A stretch of 64,000 nucleotides of DNA from positions 124,001 through 188,000 of IMG/VR virus record IMGVR_UViG_3300044821_000131. One strand, written 5' to 3'. Positions 714-50,629 of this stretch are shown in pieces. Within the stretch, counting starts at the first letter, position 1; the number at the start of each line of letters is the position of its first letter. The DNA is from a virus. The notes below the pieces were generated by a model. The model made no database searches. It had not been told where the DNA came from and was given only the letters and a program-made list of their open reading frames with translations. A program made the translations under genes and the position numbers.

Positions 714-2189
714 GTGGCGGATGATTATAAACTCACTTTTATGAGACAGCAATTGATTACCTGGTTGATCGACGAAATCGCACCGGAGATTCGTAAAAAT
801 CGGGATCCCGAAGGCACAATCCTCAAGTTCGCCAACGAAAAGAATTTAGCCCCGGCCTTGGTGCAAAGCCTTGGGCAACTGTTCAACACAGCCAAGACCT
901 TGGCCTTCATGGAGAAGTCCGCCAATCGTGGGGCTTCATTTCCATTACTGGACGTGGACAAGATGGTGGAAAAATATACCGCCGTGCCTCATACGAAGTC
1001 GGCCTCCAAGAATCTGATGGCAGCAACCGAATCAGCGTACGATCACTTCGGCTTCGACACTCCGTCCAAATCCTTGGCTGCCTGTTTCAAGGATGTACCT
1101 GGGTTGAAAATCGAGGATGAGCAGGTGTACAGCGAGGAACCGGTTAAATCGGCCTCGTCTGATACTCGTCAGGCGTTGCGTTCTGAATCTGAGACGCGGC
1201 ATCTGATTGATACTCTAACTCAGGCCAAGGCAGATTTTGAACAGGACGCGCGCGAGTTGCTGATGAAGTCGGCGCAGCAGATCAAACAGGCCGGGCTGAG
1301 TTTCGAAAAGATTGAGCAAGACGCGCTCTGGGTACACGGCGATATAATCAAACCGGCTACGGCGTTGTTGGCGTCTTATTGCTCGGCGGAACACATCAAA
1401 GTGGCCCGGGCACGTGATGCCGGGGAAAATCGTTTGGTTCGGGACAACCTCGATCTCATTAAGAATTTGGAACTGGTGAGTGATTGTTTGTTTAAGATCG
1501 CGGCAACCGATGAGATGATGGCAGCAACCCGCAAGTTGCCAGACAGCGCGAACCCGGTAGACCCCGCTAAAGGCTACAAGTACGAGCGTTCGCCGGATCC
1601 GGAGGAAAGGGTGCGTCCGCTTGATTTACACCAGCCGCCTGACAAACCTCATAAATCCCCAAAAGCTGACCGACCAGAGTCGCGCTCGACTGGTCGATCT
1701 GGAGGACAAAAGAGCGCACCGGCGGCCGAAGACAAGGGCTATTTCGCTCATGTCGGAGGTGCCTTAAATGCTGCGGCCGCACCTTTGACCAACATCCCTA
1801 CTTTCCAGAAGAAGTTCAAAGAGATGCTCGGGCATGGTCGCAATTCGGATCAGCAGCATGTAGATACATCGTTCGAGGATGCAAAGCATCTGGCTGTTTT
1901 ACAGAACTTGTTGACGACAGATGACGTTCTGTCCGAAGCTGATCCGGAAGCTGTCGTAAACATGTACAACACTGTGCGTCGTGCGGCTCCATCTTTGGCT
2001 GGTGACACCAATGTGATGCGAGTGGCGTTGCGCAGTATGATACAGCACGACGGCGTTTCGCCGTTTGACTTGAAAGGTTTTCTTGACACGGAGCAGGCGG
2101 GACAGAAAAATGAATTGAATAGACGCATGTTGAATGATATGGATTATGGCAATGGCAGTGTCGAATCCAAACCGGCAAAACCACAGTAA
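714..2189 (+). CDS. hypothetical head-region protein
   Basis: 491 residues, starting at GTG ten bases after the previous stop; no strong Shine-Dalgarno is visible and an ATG ten codons in (741) is an alternative start. No known fold is recognised. The first half is helical and carries several copies of the motif hydrophobic-Lys-x-Ala (MEKSAN, HTKSAS, PVKSAS, LMKSAQ, FKIAAT) that recurs in the neighbouring head genes. A charged Pro/Ser/Arg-rich linker lies near residues 285-345, followed by a second helical domain. It is probably a virion or head-assembly component, judged from position and the shared motif only. Confidence 0.65.
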   Translation: MADDYKLTFMRQQLITWLIDEIAPEIRKNRDPEGTILKFANEKNLAPALVQSLGQLFNTAKTLAFMEKSANRGASFPLLDVDKMVEKYTAVPHTKSASKNLMAATESAYDHFGFDTPSKSLAACFKDVPGLKIEDEQVYSEEPVKSASSDTRQALRSESETRHLIDTLTQAKADFEQDARELLMKSAQQIKQAGLSFEKIEQDALWVHGDIIKPATALLASYCSAEHIKVARARDAGENRLVRDNLDLIKNLELVSDCLFKIAATDEMMAATRKLPDSANPVDPAKGYKYERSPDPEERVRPLDLHQPPDKPHKSPKADRPESRSTGRSGGQKSAPAAEDKGYFAHVGGALNAAAAPLTNIPTFQKKFKEMLGHGRNSDQQHVDTSFEDAKHLAVLQNLLTTDDVLSEADPEAVVNMYNTVRRAAPSLAGDTNVMRVALRSMIQHDGVSPFDLKGFLDTEQAGQKNELNRRMLNDMDYGNGSVESKPAKPQ

Positions 2190-2192
2190 ATT

Positions 2193-2492
2193 ATGCCCGA
2201 TGTAATAAAAACCGCAGTGGAAGTTCTAAACGATTTCTTGGCCAAGGCTCCGGAAGCCTGCAATCAACTGTGCGTCTACAAGGTGCCGGCGACGAAAGCG
2301 TTGCTGGATCACCCGACGATTCAGGTGGAAGTGGTTAGTGACACAAAATTCAAAGTAGGATTTTTGGGGCTGCTGAACGGCATTGTGGAGCCGCTTACCG
2401 GAAAACGCGTGGCCGCCATGATTGACAACGACAAGGTTGTTGGATTTGCCGAGTACAAAGTGCCGAAAACTGATAGTCAGCCTGAACCTTAA
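2193..2492 (+). CDS. small hypothetical protein in head cluster
   Basis: 99-residue protein starting three bases after the upstream stop and ending one base before the next start. It has a helical N-terminus followed by short alternating beta-type segments (IQVEVVSDTKFKVGFLGLL). No family recognised. Its place inside the head gene run suggests co-expression with capsid genes; no specific job can be assigned. Confidence 0.6.
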   Translation: MPDVIKTAVEVLNDFLAKAPEACNQLCVYKVPATKALLDHPTIQVEVVSDTKFKVGFLGLLNGIVEPLTGKRVAAMIDNDKVVGFAEYKVPKTDSQPEP

Positions 2493-2493
2493 A

Positions 2494-3117
2494 ATGAAAA
2501 TACGATCTTATATTGACAATAACAACGGGCGCTACCGGGTTCAAATTGAAACATTGGGCTTCACCGCGAACGAAGAAGAGAAACTTTTGGAGTTCGGTGA
2601 ACCGCAGATCGACATCGGCTCGACATTCAATGGATCGGCCTCGCGGCCTGGTGAGAACCCAACCATCGTCACCATCCTGCCTGTCGGAGCGGGCGCCGGG
2701 GCCACTGCTACCGCTACGGTTGACGATACTGGCGCCGTTGTGAGCGTGGTCATTACCAATGCTGGCGGCGGTTATACCAGCGGAGCGACCGCGGTAGTGA
2801 CCGGCGACGGTTCGGCCGCGACGTTGACTGTAACGGTGGATCCAAGTTTGCATACGGTTACGGGCATCGCGGTTAGTGCCGGCGGTTCCGGGTACAATCA
2901 AGTACCACTATCGGTTACATTCTCGTTTCCTCCCACACTGCGGCGCATTCGTGCGGATTTCCCGATCGTGCAGGTGTTTGATCTGAACGATACACCGGAA
3001 GCAGATGTGCGGGCTAAGGTATTTTCCGACACTATTACGTCACGGCTGATCGCGGCCAAGACTGGGCTGCTTTTGATGACCTCGAATTTTGAAGGTGAAA
3101 CTTTGACCACTGTTTAA
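2494..3117 (+). CDS. virion protein with GSGY-type beta repeats
   Basis: 207 residues from the ATG directly after the previous stop (MKIRSYIDN). A longer frame opens upstream, but it overlaps the preceding gene and lacks coding character. The centre (about residues 55-150) has two Gly-rich repeats ending in GGGYTSG and GGSGYNQ, separated by Ala/Thr/Val-rich strands. The same repeat family appears in the sheath gene at 11996 and the large protein at 33247. The flanking segments look globular (residues 1-50 and 150-207). Probably a virion surface or connector protein; the repeat looks like a shuffled beta domain with an adhesion or spacer role (inference). Confidence 0.65.
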   Translation: MKIRSYIDNNNGRYRVQIETLGFTANEEEKLLEFGEPQIDIGSTFNGSASRPGENPTIVTILPVGAGAGATATATVDDTGAVVSVVITNAGGGYTSGATAVVTGDGSAATLTVTVDPSLHTVTGIAVSAGGSGYNQVPLSVTFSFPPTLRRIRADFPIVQVFDLNDTPEADVRAKVFSDTITSRLIAAKTGLLLMTSNFEGETLTTV

Positions 3118-3118
3118 A

Positions 3119-4090
3119 ATGTCGCAAGTTCTTAACAATCCACAAGTTCAAGCGGCCACGGCTGGTATCCGCCCGTATTTGATTCCGGCGGCTGTGGGCG
3201 CTGGCATAGGTGGACCACTGATGGCCTACTTCGCGGCTAAGAACCATATCGAAGGCGAGGATCCGAGAATGCGCCGTCATCGAATTCTTCGGAATGCCCT
3301 CTTGGGCTTAACTCTCGGCGGTGCAGCCGGTGGGGGCATCCCGGCGGGTCTGCGTACGATAACGGACCCAGCTCGGGCCATGACTGGGTTTCATCCGATA
3401 GACTCGGCCGCAAATAAAGTCGTACGCAATTGGCTGCCTTCGACAGTTGGTGGTGTTGGCGGCGTGTTGGGGTTGAAACGCCTGGGTCGTAATCGCACGG
3501 AGGCTGCGGACACAATTCATCAAACTCTTGGTTATGAACGTGCGCAGCCTACAGAAGGTGGAAGAGGCTTTCGTCAGCCGTTAAACGAAGTAGAGACTCG
3601 AGACTCATTACTGATGCGCGCCATGGACCCGAAGTCACAGCCTGATGTCATTGGTGGGCTGGCTGCGAAATTGCGACGTGGCGCCGGCAGTGGACCTTGG
3701 CAAGCACGCGAACTTCTCGGTGAGGCCGGCATTCATAATTTCAAACCTATCCACGAGATGCCTTTGTTTACTCCTGAGCAAGGTAGCACTGCGGATTCTT
3801 CGATCGAAGCAATGCGCGGTCTCAAGGCGCATCTTGGTAGTCTCGGGCCAATCAGTCGTTTGATGTCCCGCTTGGTGCCGCATGAATTGCCGGCGATCAA
3901 CGAGGCGGTACAGAATCGGCTCAGTCCTTATCGCGCCGCGGAGTTGTACTCGAAGTACATCAGGCCCAGCGTTTCAAATTCGGTATTGAAGACTGAGGGA
4001 CCACATTGGGGTGTGCCTTGGATTGTTGGAGGTGTCGGTGCCAGCATGCTGGGCGCCAACTATCTTCAAAATAAGTTGGAGGGTAACTGA
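3119..4090 (+). CDS. Gly-rich hypothetical protein with hydrophobic segments
   Basis: 323 residues. Two hydrophobic, glycine-rich stretches near the N-terminus (VGAGIGGPLMAYFAA and LLGLTLGGAAGGGIPAG), a further Gly-rich segment near residue 110 and another near the C-terminus (WGVPWIVGGVGASMLGANYL) could insert into a membrane or pack as glycine-zipper helices. The middle is charged and soluble. It resembles in style the product at 9411, which also ends in Gly/Ala hydrophobic repeats. No family recognised. Its place just before the protease suggests a head or ejected internal protein (inference). Confidence 0.6.
   Translation: MSQVLNNPQVQAATAGIRPYLIPAAVGAGIGGPLMAYFAAKNHIEGEDPRMRRHRILRNALLGLTLGGAAGGGIPAGLRTITDPARAMTGFHPIDSAANKVVRNWLPSTVGGVGGVLGLKRLGRNRTEAADTIHQTLGYERAQPTEGGRGFRQPLNEVETRDSLLMRAMDPKSQPDVIGGLAAKLRRGAGSGPWQARELLGEAGIHNFKPIHEMPLFTPEQGSTADSSIEAMRGLKAHLGSLGPISRLMSRLVPHELPAINEAVQNRLSPYRAAELYSKYIRPSVSNSVLKTEGPHWGVPWIVGGVGASMLGANYLQNKLEGN
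4078..4083 (+). promoter_or_regulatory. strong Shine-Dalgarno for a TTG start
   Basis: GGAGGG lies seven bases before TTG at 4091, immediately after the upstream TGA stop. No in-frame ATG lies nearby, and the strong site decides the choice of the rare TTG start for the protease gene. Confidence 0.6.
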
Positions 4091-5587
4091 TTGAATAAAA
4101 TCATCTATACGGGGGACCAAGATCCGCTGCTTGCAGCTTTGGACGGAGTTGTTGCTACGTACTTCGACAATGATCACAGCATCAAGTCGGCGTCATCGAG
4201 TGCATTCTCAAAGAAGCTGATCGCGGATCACATACCGGATGACAAACATTTCGGCGTACATTACGTGGCCCTCGGAGCCAGTGAATACTTTGGTCCAAAT
4301 CGAAACGGGGACTGGTGGAACGAGCCCAGTCTCAAACACGAAGGTGATGATTACGGCATGCACACCTTTGTTAAGCATGGTCATTATTTTCGCGAGCATC
4401 GTAACCGAGATCCGAAGCAAGCTATTGGATCCATTCGCGCTGCGGCTTACAATCCTGAAATGCATCGTGGCGAGTTGATCATCTGGGGAGACAAGGATAA
4501 GGCCGAGAAAGAATATCGAGAGGCCAAGGCCGGAAAGAATCTCGATGGCAGCATGAGTGCCCGTGTAGCGGGGGATGTATGCTCAATTTGCAATCACTTC
4601 GCTTCGAAGAGCAAAGATTATTGCGTACATGCCAAAGAACACATGACGCAGTGGTGGCCGAAGAAATCGAAGTTCGTTTACGTTGATAACGTGAAGCCGA
4701 AGTTTTTTGATTTCAGCGCGGTGGAGAATCGTGCCGACCGCATCGCCAGGCATCTGGAAATTATGTTCCATCCTGATGACATGAAGAAGGCCGCGTCCTA
4801 TAACGGTTTTCTTTTCAGCGACGTCCAAGCGGCACACGCCGGGATAGTGCTGCCAGATTCCTTGCGTGTCGGTTGCTACTCCCCGGATAACCAAGCTTGG
4901 TTGGAGAAGTTGAGTTCCGTTGAGGCTTATATCGGTCACATTCGAACAGACCCGGATACTGTGGCCAAGGACTCGCGTTACGAATTTTTCAAACAGGCCG
5001 CCACTTATGCTTTCGATGAGTCTGAATTTACGGAACAACAACTCGATGCTCTGCGTAAAGTTGAACCGTCGGTCTTGTTCGGCTACTTGGCGAAGCGCGC
5101 CGCCGTTCTTCCATTTCTTCCGTTCTTCGCCTACTCCACCAATCAAACGTTGAAGCTGGCGTCAGAGGACCCTGCGTACAATTACGCCAAGAAGAATCTG
5201 TTGACCACTTTGTTTCAGGATGCAGCTTCGGCGCCAGCGGATGCAGAAATCGAGCAGATGTTCACGCCGGCCTCGTCGATAAAAGTAGCGGCGTGTCCGA
5301 TTGATGACGCGACTGAAAAACTTTTGGAAAAGGTTTGCGCGGACAACACGATTGAAGTTGGTGTTGTCCGAAATAGAATTTTGCAACTGTGCGCGAAAGG
5401 ACAGCCTGTGCAACAGCAGGAAAAGTCGGCCGCGGAATTCACCGTGGATCAAATCAACAAAGCGAAAGTTGTTGCAAAAGCCTATGCTTTCTTTAAGATT
5501 GCCTTCTGTAACGCGGTTGTGGAAAAACGCGGTGAAGAAAGTATTGACGACGCAGCACTTTTACTCATAAACTCTCAACACAATTAA
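4091..5587 (+). CDS. putative prohead maturation protease
   Basis: 498 residues. The segment at 95-160 matches the pattern of phage prohead serine proteases of the S78/U35 type: a His in a charged loop before an IG dipeptide (H103 in REHRNRDPKQAIG), then strand pairs ending in a Ser in a small-residue context (S154 or S156 in DGSMSARV). Directly after it a Cys/His cluster (C164, C167, H169, C178, H180) could bind zinc, an unusual addition. The C-terminal 250 residues are helical and carry several hydrophobic-Lys-x-Ala motifs, perhaps self-cleavage sites. Position before a scaffold-like gene and the capsid gene agrees. Known of the family: cleaves scaffold and capsid precursors inside the prohead. 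Catalytic residues are inferred by pattern only. Confidence 0.6.
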   Translation: MNKIIYTGDQDPLLAALDGVVATYFDNDHSIKSASSSAFSKKLIADHIPDDKHFGVHYVALGASEYFGPNRNGDWWNEPSLKHEGDDYGMHTFVKHGHYFREHRNRDPKQAIGSIRAAAYNPEMHRGELIIWGDKDKAEKEYREAKAGKNLDGSMSARVAGDVCSICNHFASKSKDYCVHAKEHMTQWWPKKSKFVYVDNVKPKFFDFSAVENRADRIARHLEIMFHPDDMKKAASYNGFLFSDVQAAHAGIVLPDSLRVGCYSPDNQAWLEKLSSVEAYIGHIRTDPDTVAKDSRYEFFKQAATYAFDESEFTEQQLDALRKVEPSVLFGYLAKRAAVLPFLPFFAYSTNQTLKLASEDPAYNYAKKNLLTTLFQDAASAPADAEIEQMFTPASSIKVAACPIDDATEKLLEKVCADNTIEVGVVRNRILQLCAKGQPVQQQEKSAAEFTVDQINKAKVVAKAYAFFKIAFCNAVVEKRGEESIDDAALLLINSQHN

Positions 5588-5594
5588 ATAAATT

Positions 5595-7046
5595 ATGGCC
5601 GTACGAACTTACTCTCAATTGTTGCAGACACTCAATACTCGAGCGGATGCACTCAAACAGGCATCAACCAAATCCGCCGCGGGCGACACCCCGACCGAAA
5701 AAGATCTGCGCGAGAAGGGTACCGTAGAGGTGCCTAAAGATCCGCAGGCCCAGCCGTCCGCGGAACTTCTGCCCGAACGTCCGACAAACACTGAGGTCAC
5801 GCCCGTGCTGTCGGTCGCGCCAGCCAAAGTTGTGGACGGACCGGAAAAACCGGCCAACGCGCTTCTGGCCCAAGCCAAAAAAGTCGCGGGTGCCATCAAC
5901 AGTCTGCGCAACACCAAAGTTGCAGCTCGCGACACTGGTAAAATTTCTCCTGGCCTGGTGAGTGACACCGCGAGTGAAAACAAGAACACCACCGCCCCAA
6001 TCCCCGGATCCACCAGCGATAAGGGTCCTGCCAAAAAGCAGAATCCTGACCCGGTGACGAAGGCCGCCGGCATACCGGAAGTCACGGACGCCACTAACAA
6101 GGGTACCGAACTACCGAAGGGTGATAGCAAAGGCGCGTTGCCTAAACCGGTGGAGAATGAGAACACCACCAAGGTGAACGAACAGAAAGCTCCCGCCGCC
6201 GAAGGTGCCAAAGGCGCTGAAAAGGAAGCCGCATGCGCGTCCGGCTGCACCTGCCCGAAATGCACGGCCAAAATGGCTGCGGCTCTGGAGTTTACACCGG
6301 AATTTCATTACAAGCTGGCCAGTTTGATCTTGGCCACCGATGAAGGTCAACGGTTTGCCCAGCAGATCATTGAGCAGGCCCACGGCGCAGCGGAAGCTGA
6401 AGATATCATCAAGGCTGCGGCCTTCATGGAAGAGGAAAGTGCTCGCCTGCAGGAACTTGAGGCCCAAGGTGCTTTTGCGGCGGAAGAGATGTGGAAAGCC
6501 GCTTCGGAAGAAGAGCGTGTGGCCATTATCAAGTTGGCCAACATTCATGCTTTGGCCAAGGCCGGTTTGAAGACCGACTTTGAGAAGCAGGCTTACGACG
6601 ACGGTGCCGCTGCCGGTGCTGGTATGGCCGACGCTGGTGTTTTGGGTGGTGCCGCTGCTGGTGGGGCTCCTGGTGCGCCTGGTGAAGCTGGTGCCGTTCC
6701 TCCGCCTCCTGGTGCCGAAGCCGGTGCCGCCGGTGCGGATAGCATTTCCGACGAAGACATCGTCGCGGTATTGGAAGAACTCGTGCAGTCCGGAAAAATC
6801 AAGCCGGAAGAGGCACAAGCCATCTTGGAAGCCTTGCAGCAAGGTGGAGGTGGTGAAGCTGGTGCTGACGCGGGTGCGGCTGGTCCCGCTGGTGCAGGTC
6901 CTGCCGGTGCTGATGCTGGTGGCCCTCCGCCGGACGACTCTAACAAATCTCCGGAGGACAAGGAAGCCTCGGCTGTGGTCAAATCCGCGTCGAGCGTTGT
7001 TGACAGCATTATAGCGGCAATGGCCAAGACGGATGCCAAGAAATAA
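5595..7046 (+). CDS. putative scaffold / internal head protein
   Basis: 483 residues of low complexity: a Lys/Pro/Glu/Thr-rich first half, a Cys knuckle C214-x3-C218-x-C220-x2-C223 that may bind zinc, a helical acidic block (about 235-335), and an Ala/Gly-rich tail with an embedded helix (about 375-410). Such charged, disordered composition next to a protease and capsid gene is typical of scaffold or core proteins. Hydrophobic-Lys-x-Ala motifs are dense (LKQAS, TKSAA, TKVAA, VTKAA, IIKAA, MWKAA, VVKSA). The role is inferred from position and composition; no homolog could be checked. Confidence 0.6.
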   Translation: MAVRTYSQLLQTLNTRADALKQASTKSAAGDTPTEKDLREKGTVEVPKDPQAQPSAELLPERPTNTEVTPVLSVAPAKVVDGPEKPANALLAQAKKVAGAINSLRNTKVAARDTGKISPGLVSDTASENKNTTAPIPGSTSDKGPAKKQNPDPVTKAAGIPEVTDATNKGTELPKGDSKGALPKPVENENTTKVNEQKAPAAEGAKGAEKEAACASGCTCPKCTAKMAAALEFTPEFHYKLASLILATDEGQRFAQQIIEQAHGAAEAEDIIKAAAFMEEESARLQELEAQGAFAAEEMWKAASEEERVAIIKLANIHALAKAGLKTDFEKQAYDDGAAAGAGMADAGVLGGAAAGGAPGAPGEAGAVPPPPGAEAGAAGADSISDEDIVAVLEELVQSGKIKPEEAQAILEALQQGGGGEAGADAGAAGPAGAGPAGADAGGPPPDDSNKSPEDKEASAVVKSASSVVDSIIAAMAKTDAKK

Positions 7047-7091
7047 TGGCCTTGTCGCAGCGGTCAAGTGATCGCAGTACGGATTGAATCT

Positions 7092-7523
7092 ATGGCAATC
7101 GAAGAGAGAAATTTGATTCCGGTCCTCGATGAAGTTCTGAGCTTCATGGAGGACTCTCTTTCTGAATATTCTCGATCTCAAGCCCAGATTGACCTGCTTC
7201 AAAATAAGATCGCCCAACATGACCGTGTAGTCTTGGAGAAGGTGGCTGAGTTCAAAAAACATGCCTTCGATGGCGATAAGCTCAAAAATACTCTCAACAA
7301 CATGGTACAGATGCGGCTGTTGTCACCTCATGACAGCGCAAAAATTGCAAGCAAGGTCGACAATGATCCAAATGCTATTTTCGAGCTGTTGACAAAGATG
7401 GCTGAGGCTATGATCGCTCCAAGCGAAGGTAGCGAGCTGATAGAGGATAAGGATTTCGTACTGGACGACCCCGATGGTTGGGACGACATGGCAGAAGGCA
7501 AGGCGGTAAGGGTGCGCCCGTAA
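7092..7523 (+). CDS. small helical head-region protein
   Basis: 143 residues from ATG (MAIEERNLIPVLDEV); a GTG at 7068 would add eight residues and cannot be excluded. The first 60 residues are amphipathic and coiled-coil-like, the C-terminus is acidic (DDPDGWDDMAEG). Motifs LEKVAE, AKIASK and LTKMAE match the recurrent pattern of the head genes. Lies between the scaffold candidate and the promoter of the decoration/capsid pair. Possibly a small scaffold or core component; unrecognised. Confidence 0.55.
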   Translation: MAIEERNLIPVLDEVLSFMEDSLSEYSRSQAQIDLLQNKIAQHDRVVLEKVAEFKKHAFDGDKLKNTLNNMVQMRLLSPHDSAKIASKVDNDPNAIFELLTKMAEAMIAPSEGSELIEDKDFVLDDPDGWDDMAEGKAVRVRP

Positions 7524-7530
7524 TTTTTGG

Positions 7531-7558
7531 TTGCATCACGGCTTAGATGCTTTATACT
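7531..7558 (+). promoter_or_regulatory. sigma-70-like promoter before decoration/capsid genes
   Basis: TTGCAT (7531-7536) and TATACT (7553-7558) with a 16-base spacer, close to the bacterial -35/-10 consensus, in the largest gap of the head region. Transcription would start near 7565 and read the decoration and capsid genes, which need high expression. Confidence 0.55.
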
Positions 7559-7609
7559 TTGTAGGTAATTCAATTTCTCTTGTAGCCAAGTAGGCCAAGA
7601 GAGTCAGAG

Positions 7610-7632
7610 GTAGTCCGACTGTTTCGGATTAC
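7610..7632 (+). promoter_or_regulatory. hairpin in 5' untranslated leader
   Basis: Nine-base-pair stem (7610-7618 with 7624-7632, one G-U pair) and a five-base loop, upstream of the GGAG ribosome site at 7648-7651. It is not followed by a U-tract, so it is not a terminator; it may stabilise the abundant mRNA or tune translation. Confidence 0.4.
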
Positions 7633-7659
7633 TACAGTAAACACAGTGGAGCAAATTAT

Positions 7660-8241
7660 ATGACCTACGGTACATATTCACGTACGGCACCGCGCGTTAA
7701 CATCCTCAGAGGTTACTGGGGTAACGAGCCGTTCAGCCGCACGTACTCCGCTCCAGTTACCGCTGGTGTAACCATCCTGTCCGGCCAAGTCATCTCTCTG
7801 AGCGCAGGCGCTTGGGTTTTGGGTTGTGCTGCGGGTCTTGAACCGTTTATCGCGTTTCATGACTCGACCGACACGGATGTTCAATCCGCGGGACTACTCC
7901 TCGGGCTCTCATGCGCCGGGCAGTTCGAAATCGAAACCCCATGGTTCGACAATACCGTGGTGTACAACGAAAGCTCGTTCCTCATCGCCGCATCTGGTGG
8001 TTCGTCCACCGCCAACGTGTCGCCGGGAACCGCAGCTCTCGGTGCCATCACCTTGGGTGTTGCCAGCGCCAACGCGGACGTCATCGGCTATGCAGCCGCG
8101 GGCGGTCGCCAGAACGCCACAGCCATCAACAGTCAATCAGGCTTCATCGAAAACTCGGCGGGAGGCGTCTCCAATCCGAATTCGATCTACCTGTTGCGCT
8201 TCAGGACGCAGTGGTTCCCCCACGCGGAATACTCGACCTAA
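7660..8241 (+). CDS. putative head decoration protein
   Basis: 193 residues, Gly/Ala/Ser/Thr-rich and beta in character, with almost no lysine. GGAG lies eight bases upstream of ATG. The pattern of a short protein directly before the major capsid gene, with segments like VTAGVTILSGQVISL, is that of capsid decoration (head-stabilising) proteins, which bind the outer lattice as trimers. It shares the promoter at 7531 with the capsid gene and lacks the Lys-x-Ala motif of the internal head proteins, consistent with an external location. Alternative: another small structural protein. Confidence 0.55.
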   Translation: MTYGTYSRTAPRVNILRGYWGNEPFSRTYSAPVTAGVTILSGQVISLSAGAWVLGCAAGLEPFIAFHDSTDTDVQSAGLLLGLSCAGQFEIETPWFDNTVVYNESSFLIAASGGSSTANVSPGTAALGAITLGVASANADVIGYAAAGGRQNATAINSQSGFIENSAGGVSNPNSIYLLRFRTQWFPHAEYST

Positions 8242-8277
8242 ACCTGACGCTTACCCAAAGAAAGGAAATATACTGTT

Positions 8278-9321
8278 ATGGCTACTGAAAATGCTCAAGT
8301 TGAACCCCAGGTCGAAAACATCCAAGCTTTAAACCGTAAGCTGCTCGACCAGATTACGGAAGCTGATAATGGCGAAGTGAAGCAGGCCTCGGCCGCCGGT
8401 ACGAACATGATTCGTCGGCGTATTCGTGAAGAGGGCTTTGCTCGCAGAATCATCCCTCCGGTTCCCGTCACCAATGATGACCTCGACCGTGTTCTTCAAC
8501 ACGACCGGCCTGTCATCATCGAGGACATGGAACCCCTCTCCAAAGGCGCCAAGACCATCCCGTTTGGCGACAGTGCGGACTCGGAACAATACTATGGCAA
8601 CAAGTTTGCCTGTGTGTTCAATCCGATCACCACGCCGGAGTGGACCAAGGACATCAACGAATTGCGCACCTACCGCATGGACCTTCGCCAAGTCATCACT
8701 GACAACAGCCTGAAGGACATCCAGACGGAAGAGGACGGCAAGTTCATTGCTGGCGTCCAGTCCATCGTCGGTCCCGTGGTTACCAGCGGCGCTCCCGGTG
8801 TGGGTGCTGGTGGTGTCACCCAGAACTTCGAATGCGTGCCGTACAATGTGGCGGCGGGCAATTCGACGGGCACGGGTGCATGGGCCTGGAATCGTGCGGA
8901 TTACGTCAAGGTGTTGTCGGTGCTGGAAAACCAGAACCTGAACAACGGCGTGATTCTGATGAACCGGAAGACGGCCAAACAATTCCTCACGTTCGATCGC
9001 TCCGAAATCGGCGGCGACCTGGCGCAGAGCTTGTTCACGGACGGACTGACGGCGTTGCAGGAAGCGAAGATTTTTGGAGTGAAACATTTGTTCACGATCA
9101 AAAGGAATCTGGTGCCGGACAATACGTTGTTCATCTTCGGCGAACCAGGTTTTTTGGGGAGATTCTACACTCTTTCGGAAATCACGCTTTTTGTCGAAAA
9201 AAAGAAGGACATCTTACGGTCGTCTGCTCGCGAAACCATCTCGGTCACGATCGCCAATGTGTTGGCGGTGGCGCAGGTGACTTTCGTGTCGGCAGTGACC
9301 GCAGGTAACGTCACGCTCTAA
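8278..9321 (+). CDS. major capsid protein
   Basis: 347 residues; AAAGGAAA lies about ten bases before the ATG. The N-terminal arm (1-60) is charged and helical and ends in MIRRRIREEGFARRIIPP, followed by the acidic/beta E-loop-like stretch and long axial/peripheral-type segments (KTAKQFLTFDRS near 236), the order seen in HK97-fold capsid proteins. The segment EVKQASAAG near residues 33-41 matches the motif repeated in neighbouring head proteins and is a candidate cleavage point that would release the N-terminal delta region. The short length for a large phage and the strong terminator directly downstream fit an abundantly made capsid subunit. Confidence 0.75.
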   Translation: MATENAQVEPQVENIQALNRKLLDQITEADNGEVKQASAAGTNMIRRRIREEGFARRIIPPVPVTNDDLDRVLQHDRPVIIEDMEPLSKGAKTIPFGDSADSEQYYGNKFACVFNPITTPEWTKDINELRTYRMDLRQVITDNSLKDIQTEEDGKFIAGVQSIVGPVVTSGAPGVGAGGVTQNFECVPYNVAAGNSTGTGAWAWNRADYVKVLSVLENQNLNNGVILMNRKTAKQFLTFDRSEIGGDLAQSLFTDGLTALQEAKIFGVKHLFTIKRNLVPDNTLFIFGEPGFLGRFYTLSEITLFVEKKKDILRSSARETISVTIANVLAVAQVTFVSAVTAGNVTL

Positions 9322-9339
9322 TTTCGACTCTTATCTCAC

Positions 9340-9370
9340 CCGCTCCCGAAGAAATTTGGGAGCGGTTTTT
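9340..9370 (+). terminator. Rho-independent terminator after capsid gene
   Basis: An 11-base-pair stem (9340-9350 with 9355-9365, one G-U pair) closed by a GAAA tetraloop and followed by five T (9366-9370). It lies 18 bases after the capsid stop. Confidence 0.85.
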
Positions 9371-9410
9371 GTTTATTGCACCGGTCAAGTCTTTCAACTA
9401 TATTTCTTCA

Positions 9411-10079
9411 ATGAATGAAAATTTCTCTCCCGCTTTCGTCGAAGGCTTTGTCAAATCCTGCTTGGACCAAGGCTTGAACATGCCTCAAACCGAGGCGCTG
9501 TTCCGCCAGCATTCTTTTAACTATCTGTTGTCCTCGCCCAACATCTACAAAGGATTCCAAACCAAACTGGCCAGTTACACCGGACCACTGACAAAATCTG
9601 CGATGTCTCGTTTTCTCACCCCGGCGATCTTGGCCTTGGCCGCGGAGTGTCGGGTCAAGTATGCCAATGATGCGCTCTCGATTAAATTGCGTAAGGAAAC
9701 CGGGCTGCCGGATCCTTCGTGGGAGACGGTTGACCCGGAACTGCAAAAGATTGCAAACAGTTTATCTGGGGCTTTGTCCAGTTACGCAGGCCTTCCAATG
9801 AATCAGAAAATTCTTTTGGCGGCACTGGCTGGATCCGGCGTTGGTGGATTGTCAAGACTAGCGCGTCCTTCGGAGGAAGATCAGATTGAAGGGCGTGGCG
9901 CCATGAGTCGCACGCTCCGTGGAGCTGGTCGTGGGGCAGTGACCGGGGCCGGCGCCGGCGTAGGTTCTGAAGTTGGTGGTTTATCTGGCTTGGAAGCAGC
10001 AGGTTCAAAAGGCGTACTACCTGGTATGTTACTGGGTGCCGGCGCGGGTGGTTATGCTGCGCATCGTTTGACGTCATAA
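9411..10079 (+). CDS. hypothetical Gly/Ala-rich head-region protein
   Basis: 222 residues from ATG (MNENFSPAFVEGF). An earlier TTG in frame lies inside the terminator, so ATG is preferred; no clear ribosome site is visible. The N-terminal 110 residues are helical and carry LASYTG, LTKSAM, VKYAND and LQKIAN; the C-terminal half is glycine-rich and hydrophobic (LLAALAGSGVGGLSRLA, then GAGRGAVTGAGAGVGSEVGG), like the product at 3119. It lies beyond the capsid terminator, so it may be made at a lower level. Function unknown; an internal or ejected head protein is possible. Confidence 0.6.
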   Translation: MNENFSPAFVEGFVKSCLDQGLNMPQTEALFRQHSFNYLLSSPNIYKGFQTKLASYTGPLTKSAMSRFLTPAILALAAECRVKYANDALSIKLRKETGLPDPSWETVDPELQKIANSLSGALSSYAGLPMNQKILLAALAGSGVGGLSRLARPSEEDQIEGRGAMSRTLRGAGRGAVTGAGAGVGSEVGGLSGLEAAGSKGVLPGMLLGAGAGGYAAHRLTS

Positions 10080-10080
10080 T

Positions 10081-10536
10081 ATGGGTTTTAACAAAGTCCA
10101 TCAGATACCCGGCCGTGACAAGTACGGGCAGATCGACGTGGAAGATGTGCGTCAATTCATGTTCGACCGCACCATTGAAGACAATCCCCTCGAATTGGAT
10201 CTCGTGTTCGACGACGATGAGATCAACCAAGCCTTCCGATTTGCCGCCATGCGCTACAACGAGACGACTCCGTACGTCGACAAGGTTGATGCCGCACATT
10301 TACCCTATGGAATGTTGTTTTTGAATGGTATTGCTTACGGGCTTTATCTGGCCAAGCTTCAGCAATTGGCCCGGCAGGATATTGAGTACAACTCGGGTAA
10401 TATGACGATTGATGCCTTCAAGCGGCGTCTGGATCATTTGCAGAATTTCGTCAAGCTCTTCAAGGAATCATTCGAACAGATGGCCAAGGATCGCAAGATT
10501 AGCATCAACATTGAAAATGCGTTTCGGAGATTTTAG
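10081..10536 (+). CDS. putative neck / head-completion protein
   Basis: 151 residues, largely helical, starting one base after the previous stop. The acidic stretch LDLVFDDDEINQAFRFAAMR followed by YNETTP is a pattern I associate with small proteins of the head-tail joining region in large phages, but this is recollection and not a test. The location between the capsid gene and the sheath supports a neck role. No catalytic motif is seen. Confidence 0.5.
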   Translation: MGFNKVHQIPGRDKYGQIDVEDVRQFMFDRTIEDNPLELDLVFDDDEINQAFRFAAMRYNETTPYVDKVDAAHLPYGMLFLNGIAYGLYLAKLQQLARQDIEYNSGNMTIDAFKRRLDHLQNFVKLFKESFEQMAKDRKISINIENAFRRF

Positions 10537-10538
10537 AT

Positions 10539-11315
10539 ATGGCCGCGCCATTTTTAGACGTAAGTGTCTTGCCGATGTACGGACAACTCCGCGCTAGAAT
10601 CATGTGGCGGCTGCAGATCGGATTTGAGTCCGGACGCGTGTTCGTCTTCGAATCTCCCGACGGGCTTAATAATTGGCGCGAGCTTGGCAATGTGCCAAGC
10701 CGCGAGTCAGAATTTCTGGATGAACATCTTATCGCGCGCGGGCGTTTGGATGAAGCCTATTACCGCGTCGTACTAAGAAACAAGGCCAGGACGTACGAGT
10801 CGGATGTCATCAGCACTTTTGGTAAATTAACCCGGTCTGAATTTGGAATGGCCCGGGTTATAATGATGCACGAGTGGGATACTCTGGTACAGTTTACGGC
10901 GATCAAATTCTTCAAGTTGCGCTCTGATGGAGAACGCTGCGTATTGTGTGTGGACAAAGACACGGGGCAAATGATCGGCACCAGTCTTTGTCCAGTGTGC
11001 TACGGCACTGGCTTCGAGGGTGGATTTTACCCGTCAATCGATTCATTCATGCACATTGGCAACATGAGCACCAAGATTCAGTCGGATAGTCGCGAAGGTG
11101 TTGGCTCCTCGGATATGTCAACCATCAAAGTCCGGACCATGTCGTATCCCTTGATGGAGAAGAACGATCTGATAGTCAATCCTTCTGCCGATAAACGATA
11201 CTTGATTGAATCCATAGACTACGGCATGTTTCACGGCAAGGTGCCAGTCTATGCCGAGATGCAGATTCAATTGCTGCCTCGAAACGACATCCGTTATACA
11301 GTGCCTTTGTCATGA
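10539..11315 (+). CDS. putative neck protein with CxxC zinc site
   Basis: 258 residues. The first 85 resemble an FN3-like beta domain (RVFVFESPDGLNNWRELG, EAYYRVVLRN). A four-cysteine site follows (C134, C137, C151, C154, with CPVCYGTGFEGGF), likely a zinc ribbon. The C-terminal part is beta-rich. It starts two bases after the gene at 10081 and overlaps the next gene by four bases (ATGA), so the three probably assemble together as head-tail connectors. The family is unnamed to me; the zinc site is read directly, the neck role is inferred from position. Confidence 0.55.
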   Translation: MAAPFLDVSVLPMYGQLRARIMWRLQIGFESGRVFVFESPDGLNNWRELGNVPSRESEFLDEHLIARGRLDEAYYRVVLRNKARTYESDVISTFGKLTRSEFGMARVIMMHEWDTLVQFTAIKFFKLRSDGERCVLCVDKDTGQMIGTSLCPVCYGTGFEGGFYPSIDSFMHIGNMSTKIQSDSREGVGSSDMSTIKVRTMSYPLMEKNDLIVNPSADKRYLIESIDYGMFHGKVPVYAEMQIQLLPRNDIRYTVPLS

Positions 11316-11962
11316 CAAACAATTTTGCAATCATTAACGAGATGTCCAAACTGGTACTAACCCCGGTCACCATACGACGCATCTTCTTGCTTCTGACACG
11401 CTTGCACTATTCGGATAATGCCAATTACGGCAAGTTTAAGGAAGTGTTTGCAAATTTTATATGGCACAAGGATGAGAAGCTTCGAAAGTTACAGATCGAT
11501 TACGATTATCATTACGACCCGAAGAATCTCGATCGCCGTCCGGCCATTTTCGTTGGCTTGGATGATATTCGATTTAACAAGGTGGTGATTGGCAATCGTT
11601 CGGGTGATTCTGAAGATAGATCTGGTGAGGAGTTTACCAAGACTGCCAGTACCAATGTAATCATTCGGCACATTGGTAAGACCGCTGACGAGGCGCCGGC
11701 TCTGGCTGATCTTAGCAGCCAGTTTTTTATGGGTATTACTCCGATGATCCATGATTCGCTTCGTGGTAAGATTCTGGAGTATGACGTGATAGGTTTAAAG
11801 TCATCTCGTCCTTTCGAGCGATCGTCGGAGCAAGCGGACCAAAATTTTTGTAGTGACCTGATCATTGCATTGTCCTACAATTCGATCTGGATGACCTCGT
11901 TTGAGAGTCATCGCATTAAAACGATATCGTTTCAAACAAGTCTTGCAGAGCTATCCGCGTAG
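11312..11962 (+). CDS. putative neck / tail-completion protein
   Basis: 216 residues, start overlapping the previous stop by four bases. The N-terminal third is helical and basic; the centre contains RPAIFVGLDDIRFNKVVIGN and a beta-rich C-terminus. The order of capsid, small connectors, this gene and then sheath is where tail-terminator or head-closure proteins sit in contractile-tailed phages. EFTKTAS is a weak match to the head motif. Function inferred from position only. Confidence 0.5.
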   Translation: MTNNFAIINEMSKLVLTPVTIRRIFLLLTRLHYSDNANYGKFKEVFANFIWHKDEKLRKLQIDYDYHYDPKNLDRRPAIFVGLDDIRFNKVVIGNRSGDSEDRSGEEFTKTASTNVIIRHIGKTADEAPALADLSSQFFMGITPMIHDSLRGKILEYDVIGLKSSRPFERSSEQADQNFCSDLIIALSYNSIWMTSFESHRIKTISFQTSLAELSA

Positions 11963-11995
11963 TGATAATCTGCCAGCAACAAATTAAAACATCGT

Positions 11996-14900
11996 ATGAT
12001 TCAAGGCTACATCCGCCCTCAATTGTTGATCCGCGAAGTACTGCAGCAGCTGCCGAATGTTGATGCTCTCAGTCTTCACGCTTTCGTCGTCGGCCCTCAG
12101 TTCGACCTGTTCCGCTACTATGTCCCCGCCGAGCGCGCGAACATGACCGGCGCGGCCTTCGCCTACAACTCGAACACTAATCCCACGGCGCAGCAAATTG
12201 TGCCATTCGAAGGTCTGAAACCGTATCACACCGTCGATTCCAGCTTTGTCAAGTTGTACGCGGAGAATCTGGAAGGCCAGTCTTGGATCGCCGCCAGCCC
12301 GCCCGATGGTGTCAATACCGCAGATCCGAGCAACCCGTTCTCTTTTCGTCTGCCCAGCCTGAGTTCCCCGAACAAGATTCTGGTCACACTGCGTGGAGCC
12401 AATATCACCGTCACTCCCGGCACTGCCACAGCCCCCAATGGTCTGGACAAGCAGATGGCTACGGTGACCGTCAATTATGGTGGCGCCGGCTATCCGGTGA
12501 ACACCACGTTTACTACTCCAGTTCTTAACGCTACATTGGGTTCTGGTGCCGTCGTTCAGTTGACCACGAATGCCAGTGGCGTTGTCACTTCGGGTGTAGC
12601 GATCTCCCCGGGTTTTGGTTATCGCGCGGCAGCTACCTTCGATGTGCCCGGTGCGTCTGCCGGCACGAACGTTGGCACCGACGACGCCACTTTGATCCCG
12701 CAACTGCAAGGTCGTCCAATTCAACCCGGTGATATCTGCTACACCACCGATCCGTTCGGTCACACTATCCGTCGGGTTGTGCAGTCGGTCCAACAGCAGA
12801 ATCAGCCTGCGACGATCGGTGCTGGAAACAACGGTCAATTCGTTGCCGCGGTCACGAATCCTGGTGAGACGGATGCCTTCTCTTTCGCCAATACTTCCGC
12901 CCCGTTCGATTGGAATATCAATTTGGCCAAAACCTCACTGTTGGCAGTCACGGTCACGGCCGCTGGCTCTGGTTATGTCACGGCACCGGTGGTCACGATT
13001 CCGGCTCCCACTGTGGTGAATCCGGTTACCACGGATAACACGAACGCGGGTATTGCACCTTGGGCCGCTGTTCAGGCCGCCGCTACTGCGATTTTGTCCG
13101 GCGCGACTGTCGGTTCTGTGCAGGTCACTGAACCCGGCACCGGTTATTTCACCGGTGGCGTAACGGCAATTACAGTGGGTACCCGGGGAACGAGCGGAAT
13201 GTACTCGGTGGCTAATCCTCCGATTGTTTCGATCGCGGCTCCCAATGACACCGTGAACGGTGTGCAGGCTACGGCCGTTGCGATCATTTCTCCTGGCGGC
13301 GGGTCACTGCCCTTGGCTGGTGAATTGCTGGCTATTGCGGTCATCAATCCTGGCGCTGGGTATTCTGCGCCTCCGACCGTCACCATCAACGGCGGTACGG
13401 CTACCGCCACGGCTACCGTGACTGCGGCTCCGTCGATCACGGTAGCTGGCACAGCCACAGTGGCGCCGGTGATCCAATCGCTGCCTTCCAATTGGAATGG
13501 TCTGGTTCAAGGTTCAACCTACCAAGGCAAGTACGGCGAACGTTATACTTTGACCTGTACTCAATCCGGCACGACCAACGCCTTGTTTCGGGTGCGTTCA
13601 TCCTCTGGTGGATTCACCGCGGACAATGTCGTACCGACTGTGCGTGGTAATTACTTTTACATCACCGACGCCTCGCTTGGCGGTCTGGCAGTTGAATTGA
13701 ATGCCATCGGCGGTCAAGGTCTCAATTTGGGTGATCAATTCAGCTTCGTAGTGCTGGGCAAGTATTTGCCGCTGATCGTTGCTCCGTCAGGCCAAGTTGT
13801 TACCGTTAACATCATTTCGGCGGGTAGTGGTTATTCCGCCGGCAGTTTAACTTTCACTGCGCCGCCGGCAGGTGGTCGCATTGCAGCCGGTAAATATACG
13901 ATCTCTGCTGGTGCTATTGCCACGATCGTGATCACCGATCCCGGTGCAGGATACATTTATCCCCCGGTGGTGACCGCGTCCGTTGGTACCGGTGCCATGC
14001 TTCAAGCCGTAATCGGGACACCGCAGAATAGTTGCGACATCGCTGTCGTAGCCGGGTCTACGTACAATGGTCCGGTGAACAATCGCTACGTGGTTACCGT
14101 GACTCAGGGCGATACCACCGGTGGTCAGAACAGCTTTGCCAATGCTGTTGTGCGTGTTCAAGATACGGCCGGCATTGACGCAATCAAGTCGATCACGGTG
14201 CAGCAAGGCGTGAACTACAATTTGGGATCCTACGGGCTGCAGTTTATTTTCCCGAACAATCAAGTGTCGCCCAGCGGATTGTCGCCTGGCACTACGGCTA
14301 CGGCCACGCTCACACAGGTTGGCGGTGTAATCACTGCCGTAACTGTTACCAACCCGGGTATCGGCTATGTGGTGCCTCCGGTTATCACTATTACTACGAG
14401 CGGCGGCACCAATGCCGTGCTCGAACCTATCCTCAACAACGGCACGATCGAATCAATTCTGGTGATCAGCGGCGGCAGCGGTTACAGCGGCGCCGACACA
14501 TTAGCCGTTGCAGCCCCGACGACCTATCAACAGGGCTTGCGCACCGGTGACACATATTATATTGACGTCACCGCGCCTACTGCCGGTGGTGCTTACAACA
14601 CAGTTTTGCTGAATGGTCCGGCGGTTGACATCACAGGCTGGGCTCCGACCGATGTCTTGGTGAATCTGTTGAATGTCGAATTTCGAGTTCCGTACACCGG
14701 GGCCATCGCGCAACAGCTCGATCCGGCTGACGCTCCGAATCTGGCGTGGACCGTTGGTGCGTCCGGCATCTCGGTCAAGAGTTATCTGAAGATTTACGCA
14801 CCCGACCGCAATGTTGGATATCAGTATCTCGTCTGTCAGAATGCACCTTATGCCCGGCTCTACGCCAGCTGGCGCGGGCTGGTGCCGTCAACCGGCACGT

Positions 14901-16261
14901 TTGCGGCCAACGGCAGTGTTACACGCTATTCGTCCTCGGCCGCGATCATCGCAGCTTTTGGTGCAAACGACATGGATAATCCGGTGTCCTACGCCGCGAA
15001 TATCGCCTTCAATGGTTCGCAAGGAAAATCGATCTTCGTCTCCAGTGTCGCGACCAACGACTTGGCCGGCTATTCTGCGATTCTGCAGCAGGCGTCCCGT
15101 GTTCAAGGCCCATATGCATTGGTGCCAACCACGACTGATCCGGCCATCGTCGCGCTGTTCAAGACGCATGTGGACTCCTGTTCCGAGTACAACATCCGCC
15201 TCTGGCGCCGAGTATACATCGGTACTACGAGCCCGGGTAAATACGCGGTGTATCAGGCCGACAGCAATGGCAACTCGCTGCAGGCACAAGTGCTTACGAA
15301 TGGCACGGGCAATGTGCGAGTGGTGGCGCCGTTGGCAAAATTCATCACGGAAGAAGTGCAGCCTGGTGATCTGTTCCGCACATATTTCGTTCAGGATGTC
15401 TGGGGCAATTCGGCGTATCAAGAATTTCCGATTCTGTCGGTGCTTGAGAACAACGAGTTGATCTTGTCATCCGGTCCCGCTGTTCCGATTTCGCCGGCTA
15501 TACGGTTCGAGATCTGGAGGAGTGACACGAGCAATTCTCAATGTGTATACGTTGGCAACATCTCGGAAGGTCTTGACGACCGCCGCGTCGTTAACGTCTG
15601 GATCGACAATCCCACGGTGCTCAACTCGGCGGGCCAGTACGTTGTGACTCCGATCTGGAATGTCGCCGCGGAAATCGCCGGTTTGCGCTCGGCGCTTTTG
15701 CCGCAGCAGGGTCTCACTTATACTCAATTGCAGTACTCGGTGACGGCGGCGCCCACGATGTACACCAAGTATCTTGATTCTGATCTGGATCTGGCGGCAT
15801 CGAACGGCGTGTTGATCGCCACACAGGAAACAGTGGGCGGACCGGTGTTCATTCGGCACCAGCTCACCACCGATTCGAATGACGGCAGCCTGTATTATGA
15901 GGATTCGGTCGGCACGAATATCGACAACATTGCGTACACGATTAAGACGGTGTTTCAACCGTATATCGGGCAACGCAATGCCACTCCGGCCGTCGTCGAA
16001 GAATTGGATGTGCGGCTGCGAAACATTCTGAATGGATTCAAAGGCCGTCCGGCCAACCTGTCCATCGTTGGCCCGGCTATCATCGACTACAGCAACCTGA
16101 CGGTGCAGATCGATCCGAATTTCCGGGATCGTATCAACGTCCAAGTCACGGTTCAGATCCCGCTGCCTCTGAATGTCATCGATATCACGTTGACCGCAAC
16201 CACAATTCAAGGCGACGTCTCGATCACCACGACGATTTCAACTCCAACCGTCTCAACCTAA
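11996..16261 (+). CDS. tail sheath protein with large GSGY-repeat insertion
   Basis: 1421 residues, more than twice the size of T4 gp18 (659). The C-terminal part is sheath-like: a core with AFNGSQGKSIFVSSVATND (near 1000), then the final domain with EIAGLRSALLPQQGLTY near residues 1225-1241, GPVFIRHQLTTD near 1282-1293, and a terminal beta strand region. The N-terminal 135 residues look like the sheath entry arm. Between about residues 135 and 845 lie many Gly-rich repeats, each closing in a GYxxxP element (for example VTEPGTGYFTGG, NPGAGYSAPPTV, ISAGSGYSAGS). The tube gene follows directly, as usual. The sheath contracts during infection; the insert probably projects from the tail surface (inference). 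Confidence 0.75.
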   Translation: MIQGYIRPQLLIREVLQQLPNVDALSLHAFVVGPQFDLFRYYVPAERANMTGAAFAYNSNTNPTAQQIVPFEGLKPYHTVDSSFVKLYAENLEGQSWIAASPPDGVNTADPSNPFSFRLPSLSSPNKILVTLRGANITVTPGTATAPNGLDKQMATVTVNYGGAGYPVNTTFTTPVLNATLGSGAVVQLTTNASGVVTSGVAISPGFGYRAAATFDVPGASAGTNVGTDDATLIPQLQGRPIQPGDICYTTDPFGHTIRRVVQSVQQQNQPATIGAGNNGQFVAAVTNPGETDAFSFANTSAPFDWNINLAKTSLLAVTVTAAGSGYVTAPVVTIPAPTVVNPVTTDNTNAGIAPWAAVQAAATAILSGATVGSVQVTEPGTGYFTGGVTAITVGTRGTSGMYSVANPPIVSIAAPNDTVNGVQATAVAIISPGGGSLPLAGELLAIAVINPGAGYSAPPTVTINGGTATATATVTAAPSITVAGTATVAPVIQSLPSNWNGLVQGSTYQGKYGERYTLTCTQSGTTNALFRVRSSSGGFTADNVVPTVRGNYFYITDASLGGLAVELNAIGGQGLNLGDQFSFVVLGKYLPLIVAPSGQVVTVNIISAGSGYSAGSLTFTAPPAGGRIAAGKYTISAGAIATIVITDPGAGYIYPPVVTASVGTGAMLQAVIGTPQNSCDIAVVAGSTYNGPVNNRYVVTVTQGDTTGGQNSFANAVVRVQDTAGIDAIKSITVQQGVNYNLGSYGLQFIFPNNQVSPSGLSPGTTATATLTQVGGVITAVTVTNPGIGYVVPPVITITTSGGTNAVLEPILNNGTIESILVISGGSGYSGADTLAVAAPTTYQQGLRTGDTYYIDVTAPTAGGAYNTVLLNGPAVDITGWAPTDVLVNLLNVEFRVPYTGAIAQQLDPADAPNLAWTVGASGISVKSYLKIYAPDRNVGYQYLVCQNAPYARLYASWRGLVPSTGTFAANGSVTRYSSSAAIIAAFGANDMDNPVSYAANIAFNGSQGKSIFVSSVATNDLAGYSAILQQASRVQGPYALVPTTTDPAIVALFKTHVDSCSEYNIRLWRRVYIGTTSPGKYAVYQADSNGNSLQAQVLTNGTGNVRVVAPLAKFITEEVQPGDLFRTYFVQDVWGNSAYQEFPILSVLENNELILSSGPAVPISPAIRFEIWRSDTSNSQCVYVGNISEGLDDRRVVNVWIDNPTVLNSAGQYVVTPIWNVAAEIAGLRSALLPQQGLTYTQLQYSVTAAPTMYTKYLDSDLDLAASNGVLIATQETVGGPVFIRHQLTTDSNDGSLYYEDSVGTNIDNIAYTIKTVFQPYIGQRNATPAVVEELDVRLRNILNGFKGRPANLSIVGPAIIDYSNLTVQIDPNFRDRINVQVTVQIPLPLNVIDITLTATTIQGDVSITTTISTPTVST

Positions 16262-49567: not shown

Positions 49568-50629
49568 ATGGATTTTGTAAAAGACTGCTCTGGCCGACAT
49601 TTGCTTCGGATCAACAACTTGGTGACCGTACCGGAATACGTCAAACAAGCCTCGATCCCAGACGACGGCCTCGGTGATCTGCCCGAACACTTGTTCGCAG
49701 ATCCTGTCCGTCGTGAGTTTCCCATTGACAGCGCCGGTCATACGTATCTCAGTCAGGCTTACTGTATGTCTGCCGGAATCGATAGCAAGTCAATTCTAGG
49801 AAACATCAAATCGGCCATGTCCCGCTTTCCCGAGGTGCCGGCGGATATCGCAAAACTGGAGGCGGCCATGGATGCCAGCGTCAAATCCAGTTCTGTTGGT
49901 AATCAGCCACAGTTCGCCGTTTACGTCGATTTCGGTGCCGGCAATCCGGACTCTGAAATCGAGTACGTGAAGTCCGGCGGCGTGAAAGGTTTCTATCCCA
50001 TCAATGATGTAGACCAAGTGGTGGATTCTGCCATTCAGATCGGCAACGAGTCGCATCGCATCCCACTGGAACTCTTTGTTGAAGGTTGTCAGGCGATCTA
50101 CAAATCGGCCAAAGATATGGGTTGCACCGAGCAACTACCGAAGACCATTGTTCAATACGGCGTGGAACGCGTGCCGGATTACGAGTTCGTGAAACAACAG
50201 GCTGAGATCCGAGCGCGTGAGACGAATGACCCGATTTACATCGAACTGGCAGCTTCGGCTGAAGACGACACAGAACACGACTCCAATTTGTGGTCCGAAC
50301 TCTGGGGCAAGGCCGATGCGAGTCACGGCGTCAAGTATGCTCGGCACACGTTGAACCCCTATCAGATATTTCATTCCGGCATGCCCAAATCGGCCTTTGA
50401 AGCGGCTATCAATAAATGGACACTCTTGCATGGCGCCGCCATTCCGGTTCCTGCGCTGCAGGCTCTGAAAGAGGACAGCATCAGCCGTGTGATGTCGAAG
50501 GAAGCCGCGGACAAGGTGCAGGAGGTCCTGAACAAGTCAGCCTCAGTTACCGGGGCGGAATTGGCCAACGAGTTGTCAAAGCTCGATAAACCGATCCAGT
50601 TGGCACTGTTGAAACTGGTCGCCCAGTAA
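49568..50629 (+). CDS. head-like protein with Lys-x-Ala motifs
   Basis: 353 residues, divergent from the primase-like gene. The N-terminal region has LPEHLFADPVRREFPIDSAG followed by YLSQAYC, a form I know from internal head or capsid-associated proteins of large phages (a short beta hairpin with FxDPxxxxxPI). Motifs YVKQAS, IYKSAK and LNKSAS match the set in the head cluster at 0-12 kb, even though this gene is some 38 kb away. The final third is helical. Likely a virion head component cleaved by the same protease (inference). The next gene starts one base after its stop. Confidence 0.55.
   Translation: MDFVKDCSGRHLLRINNLVTVPEYVKQASIPDDGLGDLPEHLFADPVRREFPIDSAGHTYLSQAYCMSAGIDSKSILGNIKSAMSRFPEVPADIAKLEAAMDASVKSSSVGNQPQFAVYVDFGAGNPDSEIEYVKSGGVKGFYPINDVDQVVDSAIQIGNESHRIPLELFVEGCQAIYKSAKDMGCTEQLPKTIVQYGVERVPDYEFVKQQAEIRARETNDPIYIELAASAEDDTEHDSNLWSELWGKADASHGVKYARHTLNPYQIFHSGMPKSAFEAAINKWTLLHGAAIPVPALQALKEDSISRVMSKEAADKVQEVLNKSASVTGAELANELSKLDKPIQLALLKLVAQ

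Follow-up and report, generated by a model that had tools for sequence, protein, structure and literature searches.

Head genes of the window

The analysed window of 64,000 nucleotides corresponds to bases 124001-188000 of the 204,257-base IMG/VR record of a ~204-kb phage. The head module is located at the left end of the window and is followed by the tail genes (Table 1; gene calls underlying all ORFs were mechanical). Its gene order is a core-type gene (ORF 714), the protease gene (ORF 4091), a scaffold-like gene (ORF 5595), a small gene (ORF 7068), the capsid gene (ORF 8278) and then ORF 9369. The protease gene is thus found between the portal-side genes and the scaffold and capsid genes, which is the position of a prohead serine protease of the herpesvirus/T4 type, and it lies 5' of the capsid gene, with genes in between, in all of the 71 related loci described below. 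ORF 714 is the positional counterpart of gp220 of Salmonella phage Arash, annotated as a structural protein. The portal gene was not identified by family search, and no useful PHROG match was obtained for the portal-side, scaffold and distant proteins.

Table 1. Coordinates of the head genes and motif sites in the window (↓, predicted cut)
Feature	Coordinates	Strand	Basis
Head/core protein, 491 aa, 9 sites	714..2189	+	9 vs 2.7 expected
Head maturation protease, 498 aa	4091..5587	+	matches phrog_2774 (1.6e-5)
N-terminal autocleavage motif K32-S33-A34 (SIKSA↓S), predicted cut A34↓S35	4184..4192	+	conservation, pLDDT
Core/extension boundary motif K233-A234-A235 (MKKAA↓S), predicted release cut A235↓S236	4787..4795	+	conservation, pLDDT
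Scaffold-like Ala/Pro-rich protein, 483 aa, 13 relaxed-motif sites	5595..7046	+	13 vs 4.6 expected; between protease and capsid
Small scaffold-zone protein with LEKVAEF, FKKHAF, LTKMAE	7068..7523	+	3 vs 0.6 expected
Major capsid protein, 347 aa, HK97 fold	8278..9321	+	Foldseek, profile match
Capsid N-terminal cleavage motif K35-Q36-A37 (EVKQA↓SA), predicted cut A37↓S38	8380..8388	+	conservation, linker position
Protein 3' of capsid gene with QTKLAS, LTKSAM, RVKYAN	9369..10079	+	4 vs 0.9 expected
Distant head-type protein, 7 sites, YVKQASI near N-terminus	49568..50629	+	7 vs 1.6 expected

The product of ORF 4091 comprises a propeptide (residues ~1-34), a core (~54-230) and a helical, scaffold-like C-terminal extension (236-498). 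Most members of its family (57 of 66) matched phrog_18299, 'head maturation protease', and residues H103, N105, S154 and M155 are invariant in the 66 sequences; no Pfam peptidase family was found for any of them. Foldseek aligned the modelled core to T4 gp21 (5jbl) with a TM-score of 0.52-0.54 by target at non-significant E-values (0.85-0.90), and gave weak matches, likewise with non-significant E-values, to the herpesvirus proteases 1nju and 8bq1. By sequence, an hhalign comparison with T4 gp21 alone was not significant (probability 2.6), and a PDB profile search with the protease returned chance matches only, with no herpesvirus protease among them. Just after the catalytic-type Ser154 lies a conserved CxxC...CxH group (C164, C167, C178 and H180), possibly a metal site. 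In three related loci (L089, L110 and L117) the protease ORFs are about twice as long (1113-1172 aa) and resemble a protease and a scaffold in a single gene.

The capsid protein has an HK97 fold, as judged from its Foldseek match to HK97 Head II (2ft1; E 2.6e-11, TM-score 0.63 by target), and among solved structures gp27 of phage G (6wkk; profile match, E 5.6e-26) is closest to it in sequence. Two repeat families were also observed in the window. GxGY-type units are common to a head-region protein (2422-3117) and a large tail-region protein (11996-16261), and the adjacent tail-region proteins at 38386-41835 and 41832-45263 contain long collagen-like repeats with 103 and 25 GPTG units, respectively.

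Lys-x-Ala motifs in head proteins

The initial annotation had described a recurrent hydrophobic-Lys-x-Ala motif in head proteins between positions 714 and 12000. All the motifs that it quoted were found: VKQAS at capsid residues 34-38, SIKSA at residue 31 of the protease, TKSAA and IIKAA in ORF 5595, LMKSA in ORF 714, LTKSA in ORF 9369, FTKTA in ORF 11312, and YVKQAS, IYKSA and LNKSA in the distant ORF 49568. It had also proposed counting the motif in head and tail proteins, and this count showed a frequency well above chance in the head only. Against composition-preserving shuffles, [VILMFYT]KxA occurs 39 times in the head proteins for 9.4 expected (z 9.6), and 20 times for 1.8 expected when S or A follows (z 14.3), with no excess in the tail proteins (9 vs 12.3) or in the remaining genome (73 vs 64.9). 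Control motifs, in which K was replaced by R or E, the final A by V or L, or the pattern shifted by one residue or reversed, gave ratios near 1. An N-terminal targeting propeptide in non-head proteins was considered and rejected; the small excess there falls mostly within residues 1-15 and is plausibly due to the start-codon Met followed by an early Lys.

The range given for the motif needed adjustment. The excess in it is real but uneven, as ORFs 2422, 3119 and 7660 and, downstream of the capsid gene, ORFs 10081 and 10539 contain no site and ORF 11312 contains two. It also continues beyond the 5' end of the window, where G000:C1:121561-123735 has 7 sites for 1.6 expected. The product of ORF 49568, for which the gene caller favours a start at 49622, is likely an internal head protein. 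Similarly placed proteins in three other phages, G001, Arash (gp242, 'structural protein') and Vibrio phage D69, hold 6-9 relaxed sites each, and the four-way alignment is weak. Outside the window and far from the head module, a 441-aa protein (G000:C1:27856-29181; L006:7856-9181) has 8 such sites vs 1.3 expected and no PHROG match; it is predicted to be a further substrate or an ejected head protein.

Because the head set had been picked with the motif already known, weight was placed on blind scans and on other genomes. As the motif came from these same proteins, the scan was run without a preselected pattern, over 158,184 gapped three-position patterns. A K-x-A-type pattern ranked top for the head genes of four phages, namely this one (log10 p -17), G001 (-15; capsid identity 71%), Arash and D69 (-18 each; ~30%), these Poisson p-values being overstated where sequences repeat. 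Among known systems, SPN3US gave A.ES, V..ES and VA.E, in agreement with the motif published from mass spectrometry (A-X-E with V at P4 and S at P1'; PMC10052503), and T4 gave L.E/I.E patterns; in Yoloswag the same scan returned acidic runs only.

A protease search with a single-sequence query did not find the relatives, and an alignment-driven search of IMG/VR yielded 80 protease loci and 65 capsid loci. The single best head pattern was of the K-x-A type in 71 of the 71 deduplicated loci holding both protease and capsid, which are not 71 independent events because the relatives share ancestry. Such a pattern was among the top three in one of 48 tail-side sets and in one of 71 shuffled sets. 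Enrichment in the relatives is highest in the scaffold zone between protease and capsid (3.6x, a count raised by internal duplications in scaffolds), followed by the proteases (3.1x) and the upstream proteins (2.7x), and is 1.17x downstream of the capsid. The counterparts of ORF 714 in Arash and D69 contain 10 sites each. Searches of the open-access literature found no earlier description of a prohead motif of the Lys-x-Ala type.

Motif sites in the protease and capsid and their predicted cleavage

Motifs consistent with self-processing are conserved on either side of the protease core. At the N-terminal edge, ~20 residues ahead of the core, K32 is invariant in the 66 sequences, like H103 and S154, and is conserved in 98% of 89 deduplicated proteases including ORF 4091; A34 is conserved in 95% of the latter. 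At the boundary with the extension, the corresponding Lys and Ala are conserved in 89% and 85% of the 89, and the offset of this Lys from the core end is exactly +11 in 64 relatives and +19/+20 in the subgroup of ORF 4091. The only internal segments with pLDDT < 50 in the AlphaFold model, residues 19-33 and 233-242, are both motif regions. K-x-A density is 0.69 per 100 aa in the core and 2.65 and 4.25 in the two flanks. Among 67 deduplicated capsids, K35 is conserved in 60 and A37 in 64, and in the capsid model this motif lies in a low-confidence linker behind helix 11-28. The corresponding capsid sequences are GLVKEAGAA in Arash and GLTKEAGAA in D69.

A profile built from all 1538 K-x-A sites of the scaffold zone showed a preference for L/M/F at P5, for E/V/T at P4 and for Ser/Ala/Glu at P1', with Gly and Ala disfavoured at P2 and V/K/L at P1'. 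The profile spans P5 to P2', as [LMFI]-[EVT]-K-x-A↓[SAE], and its information content drops almost to background at P3' and past P6-P7; the surroundings of K-x-A in proteins downstream of the capsid gave a nearly flat profile. The original wording, hydrophobic-Lys-x-Ala, is better replaced by h-x-K-x-A-[S/A]. The extent of the profile fits the groove of a protease cutting after Ala.

The proposal of the initial annotation that the protease at 4091 recognizes the motif is supported by the motif's location, flanking the protease core and at capsid linker residues 35-37, and by its distribution, which is densest in the protease-to-capsid interval and sparse in the folded core, with the tail not enriched. 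We consider it very probable (about 0.88), judging from the sequences, that the motif is recognized by the phage's own herpesvirus/T4-type prohead protease, encoded by ORF 4091. From these patterns we infer the cutting itself, ORF 4091 as the enzyme, the bond after Ala and the order of events.

The protease would be synthesized as a zymogen fused to its scaffold-like extension and packed in the prohead core, with the N-terminal propeptide keeping it inactive. Once activated, it would cut itself at K32-S-A34↓S35 and K233-A-A235↓S236, which would free the catalytic core. Self-cleavage has been described at the N-terminus of T4 gp21 (PMC9958956) and at the C-terminus of SPN3US gp245 (PMC5694885), and the release site of herpesvirus pUL26 is YLQA-T (PMC4498786). 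Scaffold and core proteins, among them the products of ORFs 5595, 714 and 7068, would then be shredded at numerous positions by the freed protease. The protease would also trim the capsid protein at K35-Q-A37↓S38 and so remove the 37-residue propeptide helix, which would tether the capsid protein to the scaffold. The prohead could then expand. A few internal proteins, e.g. the product of ORF 49568, may also be trimmed, and some motif sites will stay uncut.

A protease site with the scissile bond after Lys (or after x), leaving Ala-Ser on the primed side, is an unlikely arrangement. The Lys is as conserved as the Ala, and the scissile bond is beyond the reach of bioinformatics. However, in the known SPN3US cut, A-x-E↓S, the conserved run stops at P1 and Ser is favoured at P1' (PMC10052503), and here the run stops in the same way at Ala, with Ser/Ala next, and fades by the third position beyond; the same Ala-Ser/Thr junction is described for the herpesvirus assemblin (YLQA-T, VQA-S; PMC4498786).

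We regard as improbable that the motif is an uncut docking or targeting peptide, i.e. a contact with the capsid protein or scaffold or a core-targeting signal. The many copies in scaffold-zone proteins are what binding repeats would give, and a capsid targeting sequence is present in the core proteins of T4 (PMC9958956), but the motif here flanks the catalytic core of the protease itself at two fixed points and lies in flexible linkers with a short P5-P2' profile. The two roles may also coexist, as gp21 likewise removes short N-terminal peptides from IPI-III and Alt of T4 (PMC9958956). There is very little room for an excess created by Ala/Lys-rich helical scaffold composition or by internal duplication: the scaffolds are indeed Ala-rich, and that of Arash contains duplicated blocks, but the excess was scored against composition-preserving shuffles, the altered-motif controls lack it, and proteins without homology to one another share the pattern, which is also present at the conserved single sites of capsid and protease.

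Lineage and comparison with known systems

More tentatively, at somewhat less than even odds, a large and mostly uncultured lineage of phages may use a prohead protease that cuts after Ala (L-x-K-x-A↓S) and has a conserved, possibly zinc-binding CxxC...CxH insertion adjoining the catalytic Ser. This protease would be freed from the scaffold fused to it at a site of the Ala-Ser type, as happens in herpesviruses. It would represent the assemblin-scaffold design in phages, and its specificity would place it in a class separate from the phage enzymes that cut after Glu. It would add an Ala-cutting class alongside the T4 and phiKZ proteases, and the herpesvirus-phage link would be testable in the cultured phages Arash and D69. 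It would also supply a cleavage rule for widespread phages of ~100-230 kb, whose head proteins are mostly unannotated, so that scaffold, core and ejected-protein substrates could be predicted from sequence alone. The blind scan, which recovers a known site, could be applied to other phage groups.

The likeness to T4 and phiKZ drawn in the initial annotation holds for the principle of a short conserved motif but not for specificity: the prohead proteases of T4, phiKZ, 201phi2-1 and SPN3US all cut after Glu (PMC5694885), whereas the head patterns here end in Ala with Lys two residues earlier. With Lys at P3 and Ala at P1, the motif falls outside the Glu-cutting class, and x-E patterns ranked top only in the T4 and SPN3US controls. 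SPN3US gp245 and phiKZ gp175 (A/S-x-E) share with the present system a short tri-residue core and a small P1' residue, as well as many propeptide sites, autocleavage and the processing of internal head proteins, which are predicted here (PMC5694885, PMC10052503); compared at motif level, they differ in cutting after Glu, with Lys at P3 and Ala as the presumed P1 here. T4 gp21 is similar in that its gene lies directly ahead of the scaffold and capsid genes and in its N-terminal self-cleavage (PMC9958956), which is predicted for the ORF 4091 product; the resemblance of the modelled core (TM-score 0.52-0.54 to 5jbl) is suggestive but not significant by E-value. The ORF 4091 product differs in its long C-terminal extension, which contains motif sites, and in the conserved CxxC...CxH group.

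The proteases of Bacillus phage G (gp19) and of actinophages (I3, E3 and Pupper) have cores homologous to that of ORF 4091, and gp19 carries LVKTAA and LEKVAS at its two core edges. Unlike the present capsid, the capsid arms of phage G and I3 lack K-x-A, and the I3 head genes gave no K-x-A excess in the blind scan. The deposited chain sequence of the phage G capsid (6wkk) starts at Met1, as that of an uncleaved capsid protein would, though this may simply reflect the entered sequence. In the actinophage loci L047, L193 and L196-L199, which also have homologous proteases, [KRH]-x-A-small is in weak excess (131 vs 57, a count that pools homologous sequences), with no site in the capsid arm.

In the herpesvirus assemblins (pUL26/UL80), too, a release site separates the protease from a scaffold-like part to which it is joined, and the cut falls after Ala and before Ser/Thr (YLQA-T, VQA-S; PMC4498786), as presumed for the ORF 4091 protease. 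Unlike in the assemblin systems, the phage motif has a conserved Lys at P3, and the capsid protein itself has a predicted cut site.
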